Shown piece after piece: positions 11,197 through 31,263 of a stretch of 64,000 bases of DNA. How positions within the stretch are numbered: the first letter of the stretch is position 1; every line of letters begins with the position of its first letter. Below the pieces are notes generated by a model that was not told the origin of the DNA, did no database searches, and saw nothing but the letters and a program-made list of their open reading frames with translations. A program made the translations under genes and the position numbers. Source of the stretch: Bacteroidales bacterium (GTDB lineage: Bacteria > Bacteroidota > Bacteroidia > Bacteroidales > F082); NCBI GenBank assembly GCA_017427985.1, contig JAFRRS010000022.1, forward strand, positions 1-64,000, written 5' to 3'.

Positions 11197-11972
11197 TGTT
11201 GCTTTTTTACAGAAAATACGGTGACCCGAAAAACAAGCCGATTGTGGTTTTGCACGGTGTGCTGGGTCTTTCCGACAACTGGGATTATTTTGGGAAACGC
11301 TTTGCGGAGCTGGGTTTTTATGTTATTGTGCCCGACATGCGCAACCACGGGCAGTCGCCGCGCATGGAGGCGTTCAACTACAAGGTGATGGCGCGTGACG
11401 TGAAGAAAGTGCTTGATTATGAGCATATTACAAAATGTTATGTCATCGGGCACAGCATGGGCGGCAAAATCGCCATGATGCTCGCGTTCGAGAATCCGCA
11501 ACTCGTTGAGCGTCTGGAGGTTCTGGACATCAGTCCGAAGAAGTTCGACCATCCTCTGGAGCATGTTGGTTTCATCGATGCCATGGGAAAAGTCGATTTG
11601 AGGCACGTGAAACGCCGCAGCGACGTGGAGGATCAGTTGGCGAAATACAATTTCGAGAAGCGCGTCCTGCTTTTTCTGATGAAAAACCTGTCGTACAGCC
11701 ACGAACACGGATTCAGGTGGAAGCCATATCTCAAATCTATTTACAAAAACATAGAAGAGATTGGCAAAGGTCTTGAAAATAAAGGGGTTTATGAAGGACC
11801 GACGTTGTTTATCAGAGGCGGGCAGTCGGATTACATCTTGGAAAAGGATGTTGAACAAATCAAATTGCAATTCACAGATTATCAGCTTGTTACACTTCCG
11901 GAATCAGGACACTGGATTCATGTCGACGACCCGGCGGGATTTATGCGGGAGACGGAGAGGTTCCTTATTTAA
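11196..11972 (+). CDS. alpha/beta-hydrolase (YbfF-type esterase)
   Basis: 258 residues. It has the alpha/beta-hydrolase plan: oxyanion segment VLHGVLGLSDNW (HG at about 20-21), PDMRNHGQSP, nucleophile elbow GHSMGG with Ser87, and a final GHW with His239. The acid is probably the Asp in FIRGGQSDYI. The sequence fits the small cytoplasmic YbfF-like esterases better than lipases, because there is no signal peptide. The natural substrate cannot be inferred. It overlaps dtd by one base and is followed by a small hairpin cluster. Confidence 0.85.
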   Translation: MLLFYRKYGDPKNKPIVVLHGVLGLSDNWDYFGKRFAELGFYVIVPDMRNHGQSPRMEAFNYKVMARDVKKVLDYEHITKCYVIGHSMGGKIAMMLAFENPQLVERLEVLDISPKKFDHPLEHVGFIDAMGKVDLRHVKRRSDVEDQLAKYNFEKRVLLFLMKNLSYSHEHGFRWKPYLKSIYKNIEEIGKGLENKGVYEGPTLFIRGGQSDYILEKDVEQIKLQFTDYQLVTLPESGHWIHVDDPAGFMRETERFLI

Positions 11973-12066
11973 ATGTGCGCCTTCGGCGAATGTGCAAAGC
12001 CAACACATTGCCTAAAAGGCATCACATTCAGGCGATAGCCTGCAGATTCTGCGAAGCAGCACATTT
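11972..12066. repeat. cluster of four small hairpins with AATGTG/CACATT linkers
   Basis: After the hydrolase stop come four short stems with different sequences: CGCC/GGCG, GCCT/AGGC, CAGGC/GCCTG and CTGC/GCAG. They are separated by AATGTG on the left and CACATT, its reverse complement, on the right. It is the same family as the larger array at 30714-30975 and may double as a terminator. Confidence 0.75.
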
Positions 12067-25750: not shown

Positions 25751-28700
25751 ATGAAAAAAAGATTTACAATCTTAATCGCAGCGCTCATGCTGCTGACAAT
25801 GATTTCACAGCCGACAAGGTTGTGGGGACAAACAAGAACTACTATGACTTTCGATTTTGAGGATAGTGGGGCTCATACAACCACTACTAATGCTTACACT
25901 TCGCACACTTACAGTGAAAATGGATTTGATATTAGTTGTACCTATTTTGATTGTATATCAAATTCTGATATAGGAGGCAGTTATTTGGCAAGAGGTCGTG
26001 TAGCAAAAAAAACTACTAATTCTCCAATTTTAGAGATTGGACCTATTAATATCACTGGATGGACCATTACTAGTATTACATATTATACAAAAGGAAATAC
26101 AAACATTAATCAAGTGTTTGAAACAAAAACAAATACAGATAATGATTATGTTACACAAATTTCTTCATATTCATCGCCGAGTTCATCAACACAAAAAACC
26201 GCAACGGTTTCTATTTCTGGCAAAACATCTTTATTGTTAAAATGGACAGGATCTGTTAGTTCGTCAAATAATAGTAATAATAGAGACTTTGATATAGATG
26301 ACATTGTCATTACATATACGACCAGCGGTGGCTCAACCGTCAACACTCCACAAATCATCCCTAACGGTGGCAGCTTCTATCCAACACAATCTGTTGAGCT
26401 TTCTTGTACAACTGATGGCGCTTCGATTTACTATACCACAGATGGAACTGCTCCTTCAACTTCAAGCACTCCTTATTCTTCAGCTTTCACAATCAATTCA
26501 AGCTGCACGGTTAAGGCTATTGCAACAAAAAGTGGCATGACAAACAGCAGTGTGGCAGAGGCGACATTCACCAAAATCACTCCATATGCCAACATCGCGG
26601 CTCTTACAGAACAAACCGTGGCAGGTACATATTATGTGACCTTGGATGATGCTGTTGTCACATTCACCAATGGAAGTTATGCATATATTAAAGATAATAG
26701 TGGCGCTATTTTGTATTATAAAAGTGGACACGGGCTTTCTGCAGGTCAAATTCTTGATGGAACTGCAACCGTAAGCTATAAATTACAAAACAACCTACCT
26801 GAAATTACTAGCCTTTCTGGAATAACTCCGGCATCTGGCTCAGCTCCAGACCCGACTGTTGTTGTCGCTTCTGCATGGAATTACACATTTAATGATGTCC
26901 TTAGCCAATATATTAAAATCACAGATGCCACAATTACTTACTCCAACCCCTATTATTATGTTTCTGTTGGCAGCAGTGATAAAGCTGTAGAAAGTTTTCA
27001 ACTATACGGACGAGATGCTGCTTCTAGCTTTAGCATCAGTAATCTTAGTGACAGTGATAAATATACAATTGTTGGTTTTCCTACATTGTATAATTCAACT
27101 AAAGAATTCCAAATATTTGCAGTACCTCAGAAAGAAGATATTACTATTGAATCATCAGCATTGCAACTCTCATACGCAGCTAACGCTTCAGGTAGCATGG
27201 CGGTTGGCTATTCCAACTTCACTCCAACCAGCGTTACAGCGGCATTGTATTCAGATTCCGGTTGCAGCACTTCATTTTCTGACGATTGGATATCAATCAC
27301 CTCACCTTTAACAACTCCGTTCACCAGTTTGGCATACAACGTCAGCGCAAACGAAACTGGCGCCAACAGAACAGTCTATATGAAAGTTAGTGCCACAAAT
27401 GCAAACGGTACGAGAATTGAAAAAATATTTACAATCACTCAGGTACTCCACACAACCTACTCCGTAACTTACAAAGCCAACGGTGGCACAGGTTCTGACC
27501 ATGAAGTGACAGGTTATGATTATGGAGCAACCGTCACAGTTAAACCAAATACTGGTACTGGCAATCCTAACTTCTCAAAGGCAGGTTACACTTTCCAAAA
27601 CTGGAATACTAATACTGGCGGTACAGGCACATCGTATGATCCAGATGACGACGAACACAACACCTTTACTATTACAGCCAACACCAATCTTTTCGCTCAA
27701 TGGCAAGCTGATAGTCACGGCCTTAATGTAGATAATGATATAGAAAACGGAAACATTTCGTTCAAAGTCAATAATACCACTGCCACTACTGCAAAAACAG
27801 ACGAAACAGTTACTATCGTTGTTACACCTGCATCAGGCTACAAACTCACACCATCATCACTTACAGTAACCAACGATGAAACTCATGAATCTGTCACCGT
27901 GTCTAACACAAACACTTTCACAATGCCAGCCAGCAGTGTCACAGTCAGCGCCGAATTTGAAGTTTATTATGCTCTTACAATCGACTTCGAAAGTGCTTTA
28001 AACACTTATTCCAATTGGGAGTTTGATGGTAATATAAGTAGATATGAATATAATTCTTCACATGGTGGATCATATTGCGGTATTAATTATAATGGTTCGT
28101 CAGCAACAACTTCAGGTACAATAACGACTAAGAGCAAAATTGCTAAACCAGGTATATTGTCATTTTATGTAAAAAAGACTAGTTCTAATTCCAATACAGC
28201 AAAATGGAAAGTTTATACAAAAGCAGACGATGGCGATTGGACACAAAGAGGCGATGATATAGATGCAACAGCTGCTACTTGGACTGAAGCTTCAATAGAC
28301 CTTTCCTCATATACAAATGTTAAGGTAAAGATCGCATATGATGGTAACAACGCCCAATACAGAGCAATTGATGATATCTGCTTGGAATACACTCCAACAG
28401 AATATGCAGTTTCGGTTTCGAATGTTGCTGACGGAACAATTACCGCATCTGATGGTACCACAACCATTACGGAAGGTAACAGTGCCAATATCGAATCCGC
28501 CAAAACCATCACTCTCACCGCTGAAGGCGATGCAACACACATGTTCAGTGCATGGAATGTTACAGGTGCTACAGTAGCCGATGCATCATCAGCAACAACC
28601 ACTTTTGAAATGCCTGCTAACGCTGTCACAGTTTCAGCCAACTTTGTTGAGTGCTGGACATTTACCTACAACATCAATGGCAATGTAGTAACCGAAAAAT

Positions 28701-30715
28701 ATGCAAAAAATGGCGCGTCAATCACTCTTCCAACCACTTCAGAACATGTTCCAGAAGGATATGCGATTAAAGGCTGGACAGCAACCGAAGGCAATGTTGC
28801 ATCTACTATTACCAGTGCAACTGCTTCTCAAGACAGAACACTGTACGCTGTTTTTGAAAAAATAGTTTATGGTGATTTTGAAAAAGTAGAATCCAGCCAA
28901 TCAGATTGGTCTGGTTTTTATCTTATTGTTTATGAAGAAACTAGCGTGGCTTATAATGGCAGCCTTACTAGCACGAATCTTGACAACACTCCTAATACAA
29001 TTGGTGTGACAATATCTTCAAGCACAATTGAACATAATACTACAACAGATGCATTAATGTTCAAAATTGAAAAGAATAATAGCTATTACACAATTCGTTC
29101 AGCATCTGGATATTATATTGGTCGTACAGGAGACTCAAATGGTTTGGATATTTCCTCTGAAACCAAATACAATCACACTATCACATATTCTAATGAAATT
29201 ACAACAATAACATCAAGTGGTGGCCCGACATTGCAGTTTTTAAAGTCAGGAGCCAACTCTAAATTCCGCTATTATGCATCAACGCAAAAAAATGTCGCAT
29301 TATACAAAGCATCTGTATCATACGAAGGCGCTTACACCCACATTTATCCTTCAAACGCCACTGCAACAGACGATATCGATGTCAGTACATCAGGTCCAAT
29401 AGTTATCGAAAGCGGTGCCACATTGGATATGGGCTCTTATGATCTTTCATGCAATGATGCAACAAAACTCATCATCGAAGACGGCGGTCAGCTCATCACT
29501 ACAAGCACTGGAGTTAAAGCCACCGTTAAGAAAGAAATCGAGGCTTCTACTGCCAAAGACGGCGAAGGGTGGTATACCATCGCCTCGGCAGTTGAAACTC
29601 CAAGCATCGAAGACGACACCAACCTTTTGACAGATGACGGCGAAGACCCAACATACGACCTCTATCGTTTCAACGAAGAGAAAAACGATGACAAACCATG
29701 GGAGAATTACAGAAATTCTGATTACAGTTCATCATTCACAACTCTTGAACAGGGTCGCGGCTACCTCTACCGTAACGGTGATGACCATACGCTTAGCTTC
29801 ATCGGCGCATTGAACGTCGGCACAGTGAACTACGCTGTGTCAAAGACAGGAACCGGCGACCTGGCGGGTTTGAACCTTGTAGGAAACCCATATTCACATA
29901 ACATCAATCTGAAATACACCACATTATACAACGGCAGCAGCGCTCTTGACGCGGAATCACAGCTCACAGCATGCTACACGCTCAGCAACGAGGGCAAATG
30001 GGATACAAAACTCGGTGTTGCTGACGATATAAAACCGTCACAGGGATTCCTTATCCAAGTTCCTGCAGATGCGACCAAGATAAGATTCAGCCAATCGGCA
30101 CAAAGAGACAGATACAATAATGAATACATCCAGTTTGCAGTGGAGAACTCGAATTATTCGGATGTGACATACGCCTTGTTTGACAAAGGTCTGGGTTTGA
30201 GCAAAATCAACCACCGCAACTCCGCAATACCGATGATTTACATCCCGCAAGGCAAAGAGGACTATGCTGTGGCAGTCATGGGCGACGACACCGAGGCGTT
30301 CAGCCTCAACTTCAGGGCGATGACGACAGGCAAATACACTCTGAACTACAAGGCGAAGGGCGAGTTCAGCTATCTGCACGTCATCGACAAGTTCACGGGC
30401 GAGGACGTCGACATGCTTCTCGATGGCGAGTACAGCTTCATTGCAAGCCCTAACGACAGCGACGCGCGCTTCATCGTGAAGCTTGCCTACCTGCCTGACT
30501 ACGGCGAGGGCAGCGACGACATCTTCGCATTCCAGAGCGGCAGCGAGATCTTCGTGAGCGGCGAAGGCGAACTCCAGGTGTTCGATGTGTTGGGACGTTT
30601 CGTGATGAGCGAGCGCATCAACGGCGTGAAGGCGGTGAGCGTGCCTGCACAAGGCGTTTACGTGTTCAGGTTGGTGGGCGAGAACGTGAAGACACAGAAA
30701 ATTGTAATAAGATGA
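25751..30715 (+). CDS. giant secreted multidomain surface protein with T9SS domain
   Basis: 1654 residues. After a signal peptide (~1-28) come a beta-sandwich region, a chitobiase C-terminal-like domain (IYYTTDGTAPSTSS, ~198-275) and an OB-fold-like domain (~285-470, YVTLDDAVVTFTNGSYAYIKD). A BACON-like domain (~472-570) and InlB B-type repeats (YKANGGTGSD ... LFAQW, ~575-660, and further copies) follow. A MAM/anchor-J-like domain (~740-880) comes next. The C-terminal ~450 residues (IIEDGGQL ... NLVGNPYSHNI ... YLHVIDKFTGEDVDML ... KTQKIVIR) match the end of the GH2 protein and include the T9SS signal. No catalytic domain is recognised, so it is probably an adhesin or carbohydrate-binding surface protein. 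The last ~400 bases are richer in G+C than the rest. Confidence 0.85.
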   Translation: MKKRFTILIAALMLLTMISQPTRLWGQTRTTMTFDFEDSGAHTTTTNAYTSHTYSENGFDISCTYFDCISNSDIGGSYLARGRVAKKTTNSPILEIGPINITGWTITSITYYTKGNTNINQVFETKTNTDNDYVTQISSYSSPSSSTQKTATVSISGKTSLLLKWTGSVSSSNNSNNRDFDIDDIVITYTTSGGSTVNTPQIIPNGGSFYPTQSVELSCTTDGASIYYTTDGTAPSTSSTPYSSAFTINSSCTVKAIATKSGMTNSSVAEATFTKITPYANIAALTEQTVAGTYYVTLDDAVVTFTNGSYAYIKDNSGAILYYKSGHGLSAGQILDGTATVSYKLQNNLPEITSLSGITPASGSAPDPTVVVASAWNYTFNDVLSQYIKITDATITYSNPYYYVSVGSSDKAVESFQLYGRDAASSFSISNLSDSDKYTIVGFPTLYNSTKEFQIFAVPQKEDITIESSALQLSYAANASGSMAVGYSNFTPTSVTAALYSDSGCSTSFSDDWISITSPLTTPFTSLAYNVSANETGANRTVYMKVSATNANGTRIEKIFTITQVLHTTYSVTYKANGGTGSDHEVTGYDYGATVTVKPNTGTGNPNFSKAGYTFQNWNTNTGGTGTSYDPDDDEHNTFTITANTNLFAQWQADSHGLNVDNDIENGNISFKVNNTTATTAKTDETVTIVVTPASGYKLTPSSLTVTNDETHESVTVSNTNTFTMPASSVTVSAEFEVYYALTIDFESALNTYSNWEFDGNISRYEYNSSHGGSYCGINYNGSSATTSGTITTKSKIAKPGILSFYVKKTSSNSNTAKWKVYTKADDGDWTQRGDDIDATAATWTEASIDLSSYTNVKVKIAYDGNNAQYRAIDDICLEYTPTEYAVSVSNVADGTITASDGTTTITEGNSANIESAKTITLTAEGDATHMFSAWNVTGATVADASSATTTFEMPANAVTVSANFVECWTFTYNINGNVVTEKYAKNGASITLPTTSEHVPEGYAIKGWTATEGNVASTITSATASQDRTLYAVFEKIVYGDFEKVESSQSDWSGFYLIVYEETSVAYNGSLTSTNLDNTPNTIGVTISSSTIEHNTTTDALMFKIEKNNSYYTIRSASGYYIGRTGDSNGLDISSETKYNHTITYSNEITTITSSGGPTLQFLKSGANSKFRYYASTQKNVALYKASVSYEGAYTHIYPSNATATDDIDVSTSGPIVIESGATLDMGSYDLSCNDATKLIIEDGGQLITTSTGVKATVKKEIEASTAKDGEGWYTIASAVETPSIEDDTNLLTDDGEDPTYDLYRFNEEKNDDKPWENYRNSDYSSSFTTLEQGRGYLYRNGDDHTLSFIGALNVGTVNYAVSKTGTGDLAGLNLVGNPYSHNINLKYTTLYNGSSALDAESQLTACYTLSNEGKWDTKLGVADDIKPSQGFLIQVPADATKIRFSQSAQRDRYNNEYIQFAVENSNYSDVTYALFDKGLGLSKINHRNSAIPMIYIPQGKEDYAVAVMGDDTEAFSLNFRAMTTGKYTLNYKAKGEFSYLHVIDKFTGEDVDMLLDGEYSFIASPNDSDARFIVKLAYLPDYGEGSDDIFAFQSGSEIFVSGEGELQVFDVLGRFVMSERINGVKAVSVPAQGVYVFRLVGENVKTQKIVIR

Positions 30716-30975
30716 TGTGCAGCCTTCGGCTGAATGTGCCGCCTGACGGCGGAATGTGAAGCCTTCGGCTTAATGTGCCGCGATGCGGAATGTGCAGCCT
30801 GACGGCTGAATGAGGCGAAGCCTCCACATTCCCGAACGTAGTGAGGGCACATTTCACGAAGTGACACATTTCACAAAGTGACACATTTCACAAAGTGACA
30901 CATTTCACGAAGTGACACATTTCACGAAGTGACACACATTCTGCGAAGCAGCAAATTTTGCGAAGCAACAAATTT
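30714..30975. repeat. array of about 14 tiny hairpins with AATGTG/CACATT linkers
   Basis: Starting at the stop of the giant gene, short stems of 3-5 bp follow each other every 16-20 bases: CAGCC/GGCTG, CCGCC/GGCGG, AAGCC/GGCTT, CCGC/GCGG, CAGCC/GGCTG, AGGC/GCCT, CCC/GGG, then five CAC/GTG, then CTGC/GCAG and GC/GC. Loops are mostly TTC, TGAC or GAA. AATGTG separates the first half and CACATT the second half. The stem pairs change together while the linkers stay constant. The array fills the 284 bases before the next gene. Confidence 0.85.
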
Positions 30976-30999
30976 TGACAAATTAAAAAAACAGATACA

Positions 31000-31263
31000 A
31001 TGAGAAAAGCATTATTAACATTAGTGATTGTGATGACATTCGGTCTTTGTGCGAGTGCTCAGAGCGACGGTTTCTTCAAGAACAGCAAAAATGACGGTTA
31101 CAGCGACCGCGGTGGTGTTCCAAGCGACCCGTTGATGCCTGCATTGCCTGGTGGCAGCGTGGGAGAATACAACAGCGACCAGGGCGCTCCGTTAGGAAGC
31201 GGTATCCTCGTCCTTACGGCACTTGGAGCGGGATACGCGGTGGCGCGCAGAAGACGCAGCTGA
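31000..31263 (+). CDS. small secreted protein with C-terminal PLGSG-membrane-Arg sorting-like signal
   Basis: 87 residues. The signal peptide is MRKALLTLVIVMTFGLCASAQ. A short polar, glycine/proline-rich region (DRGGVPSDPLMPALPGGS) leads to GAPLGSG, a hydrophobic helix (ILVLTALGAGYAVA) and a final RRRRS. The order motif, one membrane helix, basic tail is the tripartite layout of LPXTG, PEP-CTERM and PID-CTERM sorting signals. It is not a T9SS domain. The mature peptide would have only ~40 residues. Function is unknown; it could be a surface-anchored peptide or a precursor. Confidence 0.8.
   Translation: MRKALLTLVIVMTFGLCASAQSDGFFKNSKNDGYSDRGGVPSDPLMPALPGGSVGEYNSDQGAPLGSGILVLTALGAGYAVARRRRS

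Follow-up and report, generated by a model that had tools for sequence, protein, structure and literature searches.

A 64,000-nucleotide stretch of contig JAFRRS010000022.1 from a Bacteroidales bacterium (hereafter 'the window'; its genome is called G000) carries at positions 30714-30984 an array of 14 mini-hairpins, which its sequence and parse divide into five hairpins of a left arm, one central hairpin and eight of a right arm. The hairpins are joined by fixed linkers, AATGTG in the left arm and CACATT or CAAATT in the right arm. It is not an isolated locus but a member of a repeat family that is dispersed in G000. Our favored reading, plausible but tentative, is that the family is akin to repetitive extragenic palindromic (REP) elements and would act at the level of DNA, growing and shrinking unit by unit, with the linker read by its sequence and the hairpin by its shape. 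The dispersal of the family, the covariation of its stems, the conservation of its linkers, its strand-specific signature, its polarity relative to stop codons, the variation in unit number within a 4-alpha-glucanotransferase (GH77) gene and the recurrence of its grammar in other genomes are all observed directly.

A preliminary description of this DNA had proposed an array of about 14 hairpins, which proves real, with pairing beyond that of shuffled sequences. It had also proposed that the linker changes halfway from AATGTG to its reverse complement. This holds and can be refined: the arms run in opposite senses, which is why the right linker reads as the reverse complement, the orientation of the loops flips as well, and CAAATT also serves as a linker.

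A dispersed family with opposed arms

Searches of G000 for linker pairs returned 81 + 73 matches, compared with 1 + 6 for a control in which the linker pattern is read backwards (the reversed control). Parsing of 39 stretches around linker matches, among the matches listed, yielded 50 array pieces, or 51 when AATATG and CATATT are also counted as linkers. Loop polarity and class B units (such as the window hairpin with a symmetric internal loop; Table 1) were no part of the linker-pair searches in G000, in its named relatives, or in the more distant genomes G460 and those of Saprospiraceae.

Arms are arranged left-then-right, or occur singly, in 45 of 51 arrays; the order right-then-left never occurs (0), and six arrays are mixed. 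Identical units make up 4 of 107 adjacent pairs and 6 of 99 other same-arm pairs, and 237 of 16867 pairs between arrays. Across opposite arms none of 132 pairs is identical, and therefore the array is no simple inverted duplication. A larger inverted repeat, TAGAGA...TCTCTA or TAGGGACG...CGTCCCTA, adjoins some arrays (L177 at ~2500; L191 at ~2100 and 2730), with a T-tract after it in one case.

Pairing and strand polarity of the units

In the pairing test, all inserts between consecutive exact AATGTG linkers were picked by linker and not by pairing. Perfect stems of 4 bp or more are present in 57 of the 104 distinct inserts in the stretches of G000, whereas 300 shuffles gave 2.7 on average and never more than 8. 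The same test gives 37 of 65 inserts for the relative G032 (shuffle mean 1.5) and 13 of 22 for G050 (mean 0.4). A chance origin of the pairing is excluded. When near-variant linkers are admitted, 262 of 333 units, 161 of them distinct in sequence among the 333, pair perfectly and 47 carry one mismatch.

The outer stem positions use all four Watson-Crick pairs, and C-G closes the loop in most stems, namely in 88 of 105 with four pairs and 34 of 38 with five. Of 82 triloops read on the AATGTG strand, 61 are TNC and one is GNA, the GNA class lying on the opposite strand. Many of the remaining inserts also fold into hairpins, interrupted by a symmetric internal loop of two bases; the TC/TC form suits 22 distinct units, and two-by-two internal loops on the AATGTG strand are TC/TC in 21 of 23. 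The signature of loops and internal loops is therefore polar and singles out one strand of each arm. The CACATT strand reads C-GNA-G with tandem GA/GA, which would place the units among the DNA mini-hairpins of high stability, such as GCGAAGC with its sheared G.A pairs. The asymmetry in energy between the strands is modest: with RNA parameters the CACATT strand is the more stable in 56 and the less stable in 16 of 147 units, and with DNA parameters in 45 and 22, respectively.

RNA GNRA tetraloops were considered and rejected as a reading of the four-base loops, 14 of 21 of which are TNNC, with only two of these reading GNRA on the other strand. A strictly nested rod, in which AATGTG pairs with CACATT between four-way junctions, was suggested by centres that read AATGTG-hairpin-A/T-hairpin-CACATT. 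Minimum-energy folds do pair many linkers across the arms. Nevertheless, the strict rod is rejected, as evident by the lack of correlation between the linker numbers of the two arms (rho 0.11, p = 0.50, n = 40).

Turnover of units between relatives

Orthologous arrays of G000, G032 and G050 differ by units gained, lost or swapped, and arrays of one region are partly missing in G032 (L178/L210). In 18 locus pairs that compare G000 with G032 or G050 (78 hairpins kept, 33 with alignment gaps set aside), 317 stem pairs are unchanged and 10 differ in both bases while still forming a Watson-Crick pair, five of these in one locus pair (L189/L214) that may reflect replacement of units. One-sided changes number 14 (4 G-T, 6 A-C, 4 other), a few of which fall in hairpins outside units. 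Differences were seen at 13 of 711 aligned bases in linkers, compared with 21 of 245 in loops and 1470 of 17230 in flanks; the difference between linker and flank (p = 1e-13) is biased by the fact that linkers were picked as exact in one genome. The preliminary description had named kept pairing in homologous arrays and copy number between strains as points on which its proposal could be checked; the stems do stay paired, and unit numbers do differ between relatives at orthologous sites. Its further argument, that covariation is strong evidence for the importance of paired structure, stands in part. Covariation is present, with all four pairs in use and 10 double-sided changes, but it does not by itself prove a role of paired RNA, since hairpins can also arise and persist through template switching.

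A GH77 gene (PF02446, E 4e-117), matched in 24 of 99 genomes of the genus, offers a view of unit turnover inside a coding sequence. Units or a remnant lie in frame in six of the 24 genomes, and 18 have none. The in-frame copies comprise a remnant in G092, one hairpin in G005, three in each of G000, G032 and G050, and four in G096, one of which is class B; the open frames in these six genomes span 489-543 amino acids. The gene of G062 is free of units, though this genome has arrays elsewhere. Because the copies vary where a role in ending transcripts is implausible, unit number evidently changes at the level of DNA, and the in-frame units argue against a pure terminator role. At the same site, G049 (L362) carries a different palindrome, TTGAGACGTGC-AGCG-GCACGTCTCAA, which is also in frame.

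Such turnover might arise passively during replication, if slippage between identical linkers multiplies units and template switching keeps their stems paired, such that neither a factor nor a function is involved. Template switching in replication can generate and maintain hairpins (PMC8794818). Consistent with a passive origin, two neighbouring pairs are seen to change together (e.g. CCGC..GCGG versus TTGC..GCAA), neighbouring units can be nearly identical, as with the five TCAC/GTGA units of the window, and same-arm units are identical in 10 of 206 pairs, against the 237 of 16867 noted above between arrays. However, template switching also yields spacer inversion (PMC8604942), yet the loops are polar at 61 TNC to 1 GNA. 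Replication errors also leave unexplained the ordering of the arms and the fact that AATGTG and loop polarity are common to some unrelated genomes. We consider a purely passive origin unlikely.

Position relative to genes

Genes were called by a longest open reading frame (ORF) rule, and gene context was computed in G000 only. Merging two pairs of the 51 arrays and dropping L171, which is without a left neighbour, left 48 array places, including seven that carry a flag for overlap with a called ORF. These places comprise 18 convergent, 28 tandem and two divergent gene pairs, compared with 11 convergent, 34 tandem and 23 divergent pairs among the 68 gaps of these stretches that have no array and measure at least 50 nt. 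Arrays thus avoid divergent pairs (divergent versus rest, p = 7e-5). Where array ends lie near stop codons, the first linker in the sense of the gene is of the AATGTG type in 49 of 53 cases, reading away from the gene, and the start of the array falls between -3 and +5 nt relative to the stop in 33 of 53. At the commonest offset (16 of 53), the stop codon is held within TAATGTG. Several arrays span the entire gap between two stops. Position relative to gene ends, which the preliminary description had also marked for checking, is thus confirmed as a feature of the arrays of G000.

This distribution could indicate a functional RNA element, namely a bidirectional structure at transcript ends (terminator, insulator or 3′ stabiliser) whose hairpins are under selection as RNA. 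The bias toward convergent and tandem pairs, the abutment of arrays on stops and the filling of stop-to-stop gaps all fit such a role. Predicted RNA folding is also strong, with z < -3 in 26 of 51 arrays and a median of -3.2, and another site resembling an intrinsic terminator lies within 70 nt of only five of 51 arrays. On the other side, the units carry no T-tract, since AATGTG or CACATT comes next, and so they do not take the form of an intrinsic terminator; the linker numbers of left and right arms are uncorrelated; and GH77 genes hold differing numbers of units with the frame kept open. Selection at the RNA level was not supported by mismatches on the AATGTG strand (8 G-T versus 17 A-C, p = 0.11), and on the CACATT strand a lean to wobble is no more than suggestive. 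Moreover, REPs have the same gene-end distribution (PMC3733652). In our judgment an RNA element is somewhat unlikely. The proposal of a 3′-end RNA stabiliser, one of three options in the preliminary description, is weakened in particular by the turnover of units within the GH77 coding sequence.

Recurrence in other genomes

Within the taxonomic family, 12 of 173 genomes have the unit pattern; they all belong to a single genus, and the control gave one match in total. Matches number 97 in G032, 68 in G000, 20 in G050, 14 in G096 and 13 in G062, and the other seven genomes have 1-2 each. The named relatives were taken from the matches listed, and so their number is a lower bound. One array locus, L070, belongs to Bacteroidales bacterium RGIG7852 from water buffalo reticulum, and its match coordinates equal those of G032. 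In a sample of the order, 10 of 393 genomes matched, several of them by single, chance-like units, with one control match.

Linker pairs also far exceed the control in G460, of another Bacteroidales family (33 + 40 versus 1 + 1 in the control), and in two genomes of Saprospiraceae, G948 (53 + 91 versus 2 + 2) and G949 (125 + 149 versus 15 + 7). The counts for these two are of linker pairs, with hairpins verified at named loci. Hairpin inserts with TNC/GNA loops in the same polarity are present at L048 (G948), at L106, L134, L156 and L274 (G949), and at L237, L272 and L280 (G460); the G949 loci also have other loops, such as CAAG. The AATGTG-hairpin units for which the preliminary description suggested a search of related genomes therefore recur in the same genus and also, with the same grammar, in some unrelated Bacteroidota (G460, G948 and G949).

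A search for GCGAAGC pairs that ignores the linker matched 167 of 392 genomes of the phylum, many of which also match the control. Arrays of GCGAAGC hairpins with variable short spacers occur in G831 (C11, 23723-23845) and G920, without AATGTG among the matches listed. A different dispersed repeat, GCGAAGCGATACTCCAGCANNGCGAAGC, is present on several contigs of G709, where the reversed control is also high, and once in G826 among the matches listed.

How the units may spread

Each unit is a fixed 6-nt AATGTG linker plus a mini-hairpin that is free in stem sequence but keeps its pairing, loop class and polarity. A fixed linker, a free stem, strict polarity and turnover of DNA together fit a linker that is read by sequence and a hairpin that is read by shape. 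IS200/IS605 elements and REPs with their REP-associated tyrosine transposases (RAYTs) are known for hairpin recognition. By analogy, a putative factor would recognise the AATGTG linker and the shape of its neighbouring hairpin, probably on single-stranded DNA exposed during replication or transcription, and would copy, trim or homogenise units. Gene ends and frame-keeping sites would then be the places where selection tolerates units. A secondary effect on transcript ends is possible where arrays lie between convergent genes, and host use at gene ends may come on top of spreading. Among the three options of the preliminary description, an expanding mobile repeat is the best supported, given the dispersal, the unit turnover and the unit variation in GH77.

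Several results weigh against a spreading element. No agent of array spread was found. A Y1/RAYT transposase is rejected as the agent because the Y1 count does not track array number: Y1_Tnp (PF01797) is matched once each in G000 and G032 and is absent from the 99% complete G050, and the 70 of 99 genus genomes with Y1 matches are mostly near background for linker pairs. The surroundings of the single copy in G000 (L197) hold scattered linker words and no array. Phage and plasmid records gave no match to the unit pattern, and in viral contigs 63 stretches have one unit-like match each, with at least three further pairs in only two of the 63. The GH77 case may represent one inherited insertion followed by slippage, for which no enzyme is needed, and a host function would likewise account for conservation at gene ends. 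The searches that showed recurrence of AATGTG were all seeded with this word and are uninformative on how special it is. Finally, in a sample of 392 genomes of the phylum, triple AATGTG is present in 30 genomes and the reversed control in 24; the matches number 242 versus 70, and 66 versus 70 once G000 and G726 are removed. A phylum-wide role of the AATGTG word is thus not supported by the sample.

Linker arrays without hairpins

G726 has 52 + 51 triple AATGTG matches versus 0 in the control, and these are free of hairpins among the matches listed. Tandem NNAATGTG arrays without hairpins, with CANATT arms after them, occur in several Bacteroidota (L039, L074, L091, L121, L157 and others). Among 103 AATGTG spans from the matches listed, at least three CANATT words follow downstream in 11 (10 loci) and upstream in 0; two of the 11, both in L056, look unrelated. 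At L236 (G276), octamer units are mixed with a GCGCTTCGC hairpin unit, a possible link between both forms.

A broader version of the spreading reading would join these forms into a patchy mobile system of Bacteroidota, in which a putative enzyme recognises single-stranded mini-hairpins beside AATGTG by shape alone and adds or removes single units. On the CACATT strand, the recognised shape would be that of C-GNA-G loops and tandem GA/GA, the stems being without conserved sequence, and the hairpin-free AATGTG arrays of some genomes would be relatives. The absence of general AATGTG-triple enrichment in the phylum lowers the odds of such a system, which we regard as doubtful.

Alternatively, AATGTG/CACATT could be the site of an RNA- or DNA-binding protein, with hairpins as mere spacers, an architecture for which CsrB/RsmZ-type RNAs are a model. 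The greater conservation of linkers relative to stems, loops and flanks agrees with a binding array, as do the hairpin-free arrays with 2-nt spacers, the one-sided placement of CANATT and the mixing of both unit kinds in G276. There is, however, no known protein for the site, and the AATGTG triple does not exceed the reversed control outside G000 and G726. We hold a binding array to be very improbable. The Bacteroides RNA recognition motif protein RbpB was rejected as a reader of AAUGUG, as its reported motif, GUAGGAUA, differs (a secondary statement in PMC12119571).

Arrays and neighbouring genes of the window

The features of the window and the in-frame GH77 units are collected in Table 1. 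The last right-arm linker stops 15 nt 5′ of the start codon of the downstream gene. Rfam gives 0 matches above the gathering score in the window. The preliminary description had labelled the upstream gene as belonging to a type IX secretion system (T9SS), which is unconfirmed: Pfam gives the domains listed and NCBIfam gives no match. A large gene with a look-alike 3′ end is paired with an 87-amino-acid gene at three places (positions 25751-31263 of the window, L002 and L003); each of these gene pairs has an array in between, and the start of the 87-amino-acid protein is signal-like by eye. The gap that holds the second array of the window was scored as divergent under the simple ORF rule.

Table 1. 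Features of the hairpin arrays, their flanking genes and the GH77 units. Positions are those of the window unless a locus is named.
Feature	Position	Strand	Remarks
Upstream gene, 1654 aa	25751..30715	+	Pfam Flg_new_2, CHB_HEX_C_1, Fn3_assoc, Flg_new, BACON
First left linker, GATGTG	30714..30719	+	Overlaps TGA stop (30713-30715) of upstream gene
Left arm, five hairpins	30720..30808	+	CAGCC-TTC-GGCTG, CCGCC-TGAC-GGCGG, AAGCC-TTC-GGCTT, CCGC-GAT-GCGG, CAGCC-TGAC-GGCTG
AATGTG linkers between left-arm hairpins	Starts 30733, 30753, 30772, 30789	+
Centre, meeting point of arms	30809..30830	+	AAT, GAGGC-GAA-GCCTC, CACATT
Class B hairpin, 17-mer	30831..30847	+	CCC-GA-AC-GTA-GT-GA-GGG; symmetric GA/GA internal loop
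Right arm	30848..30984	+	Five TCAC-RAA-GTGA on CACATT; then CTGC-GAA-GCAG, TTGC-GAA-GCAA on CACATT/CAAATT
Downstream gene, 87 aa	31000..31263	+	Without Pfam or NCBIfam match
Second, shorter array of same family	11972..12065	+	Two AATGTG and three CACATT linkers
AATGTG units of GH77	L167 1960-2130; L346-L369		In frame

Sequence similarity is the usual route to a repeat family, but what this family conserves is its structure and a word of six letters, and thus similarity searches catch only fragments of it. With hundreds of short units, orthologous copies among several species and, within an enzyme gene, an in-frame copy for which empty sites serve as a control, it provides a natural test case for distinguishing selection on paired structure from the maintenance of palindromes by template switching. 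A factor that reads AATGTG and hairpin shape, if it exists, would be a new agent of genome remodelling. Should the arrays end transcripts, they would constitute a major gene-end signal in the genomes that bear them.

Comparison with known systems

The searched literature, whose coverage excludes most subscription papers and all bioRxiv preprints, holds no description of the element. Rickettsia palindromic elements are repeats inserted in frame in coding genes, and they are longer and conserved in sequence. The GH77 units resemble them in their in-frame insertion into a conserved protein gene (6 of 24 genomes) and differ in being short and conserved in structure rather than in stem sequence.

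Among other repeats, the TAACTGA heptamer direct repeats of Beggiatoaceae, Cyanobacteria and five Bacteroidetes, whose mechanism is described as not evident, likewise consist of a short fixed word in tandem that is intergenic and patchy across phyla; they differ in that no hairpins lie between the words and that copies in the Beggiatoaceae genome are mostly just upstream of start codons (PMC4679880). The BrickBuilt miniature inverted-repeat transposable element of Porphyromonas gingivalis is also an intergenic tandem repeat of Bacteroidales with predicted long stem-loops, but it has a 23-nt repeat, a leader, a tail and inverted-repeat ends, and CACATT is absent from the main text of its report (PMC4596501). 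Palindromic repeats in Volvox organelles are short, proliferating and read as selfish DNA; they differ in that they reside in organelle DNA (PMC2670323).

The nearest known kind is REP/RAYT, yet its foot, its stem and its Y1 transposase are not those of the arrays. The hairpins of REP families have GTAG or CGTC at the foot, and the families are told apart by their stems and loops (PMC3733652). Neither foot is present in any of 85 hairpins between exact linkers in G000, complements included (0 of 85); the arrays have instead an AATGTG foot and ordered arms. Their stems are not conserved within the family, as evident by the use of all four Watson-Crick pairs and by the many distinct units, and G050 has arrays without a match to Y1. 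What the arrays share with REPs and bacterial interspersed mosaic elements (BIMEs) is dispersal, an extragenic location, opposed hairpin units and a preference for tandem and convergent gene pairs, with intragenic copies also known for REPs (PMC3733652). The avoidance of divergent promoters, at 2 of 48 array places versus 23 of 68 array-free gaps, is as expected for a REP-like distribution at gene ends.

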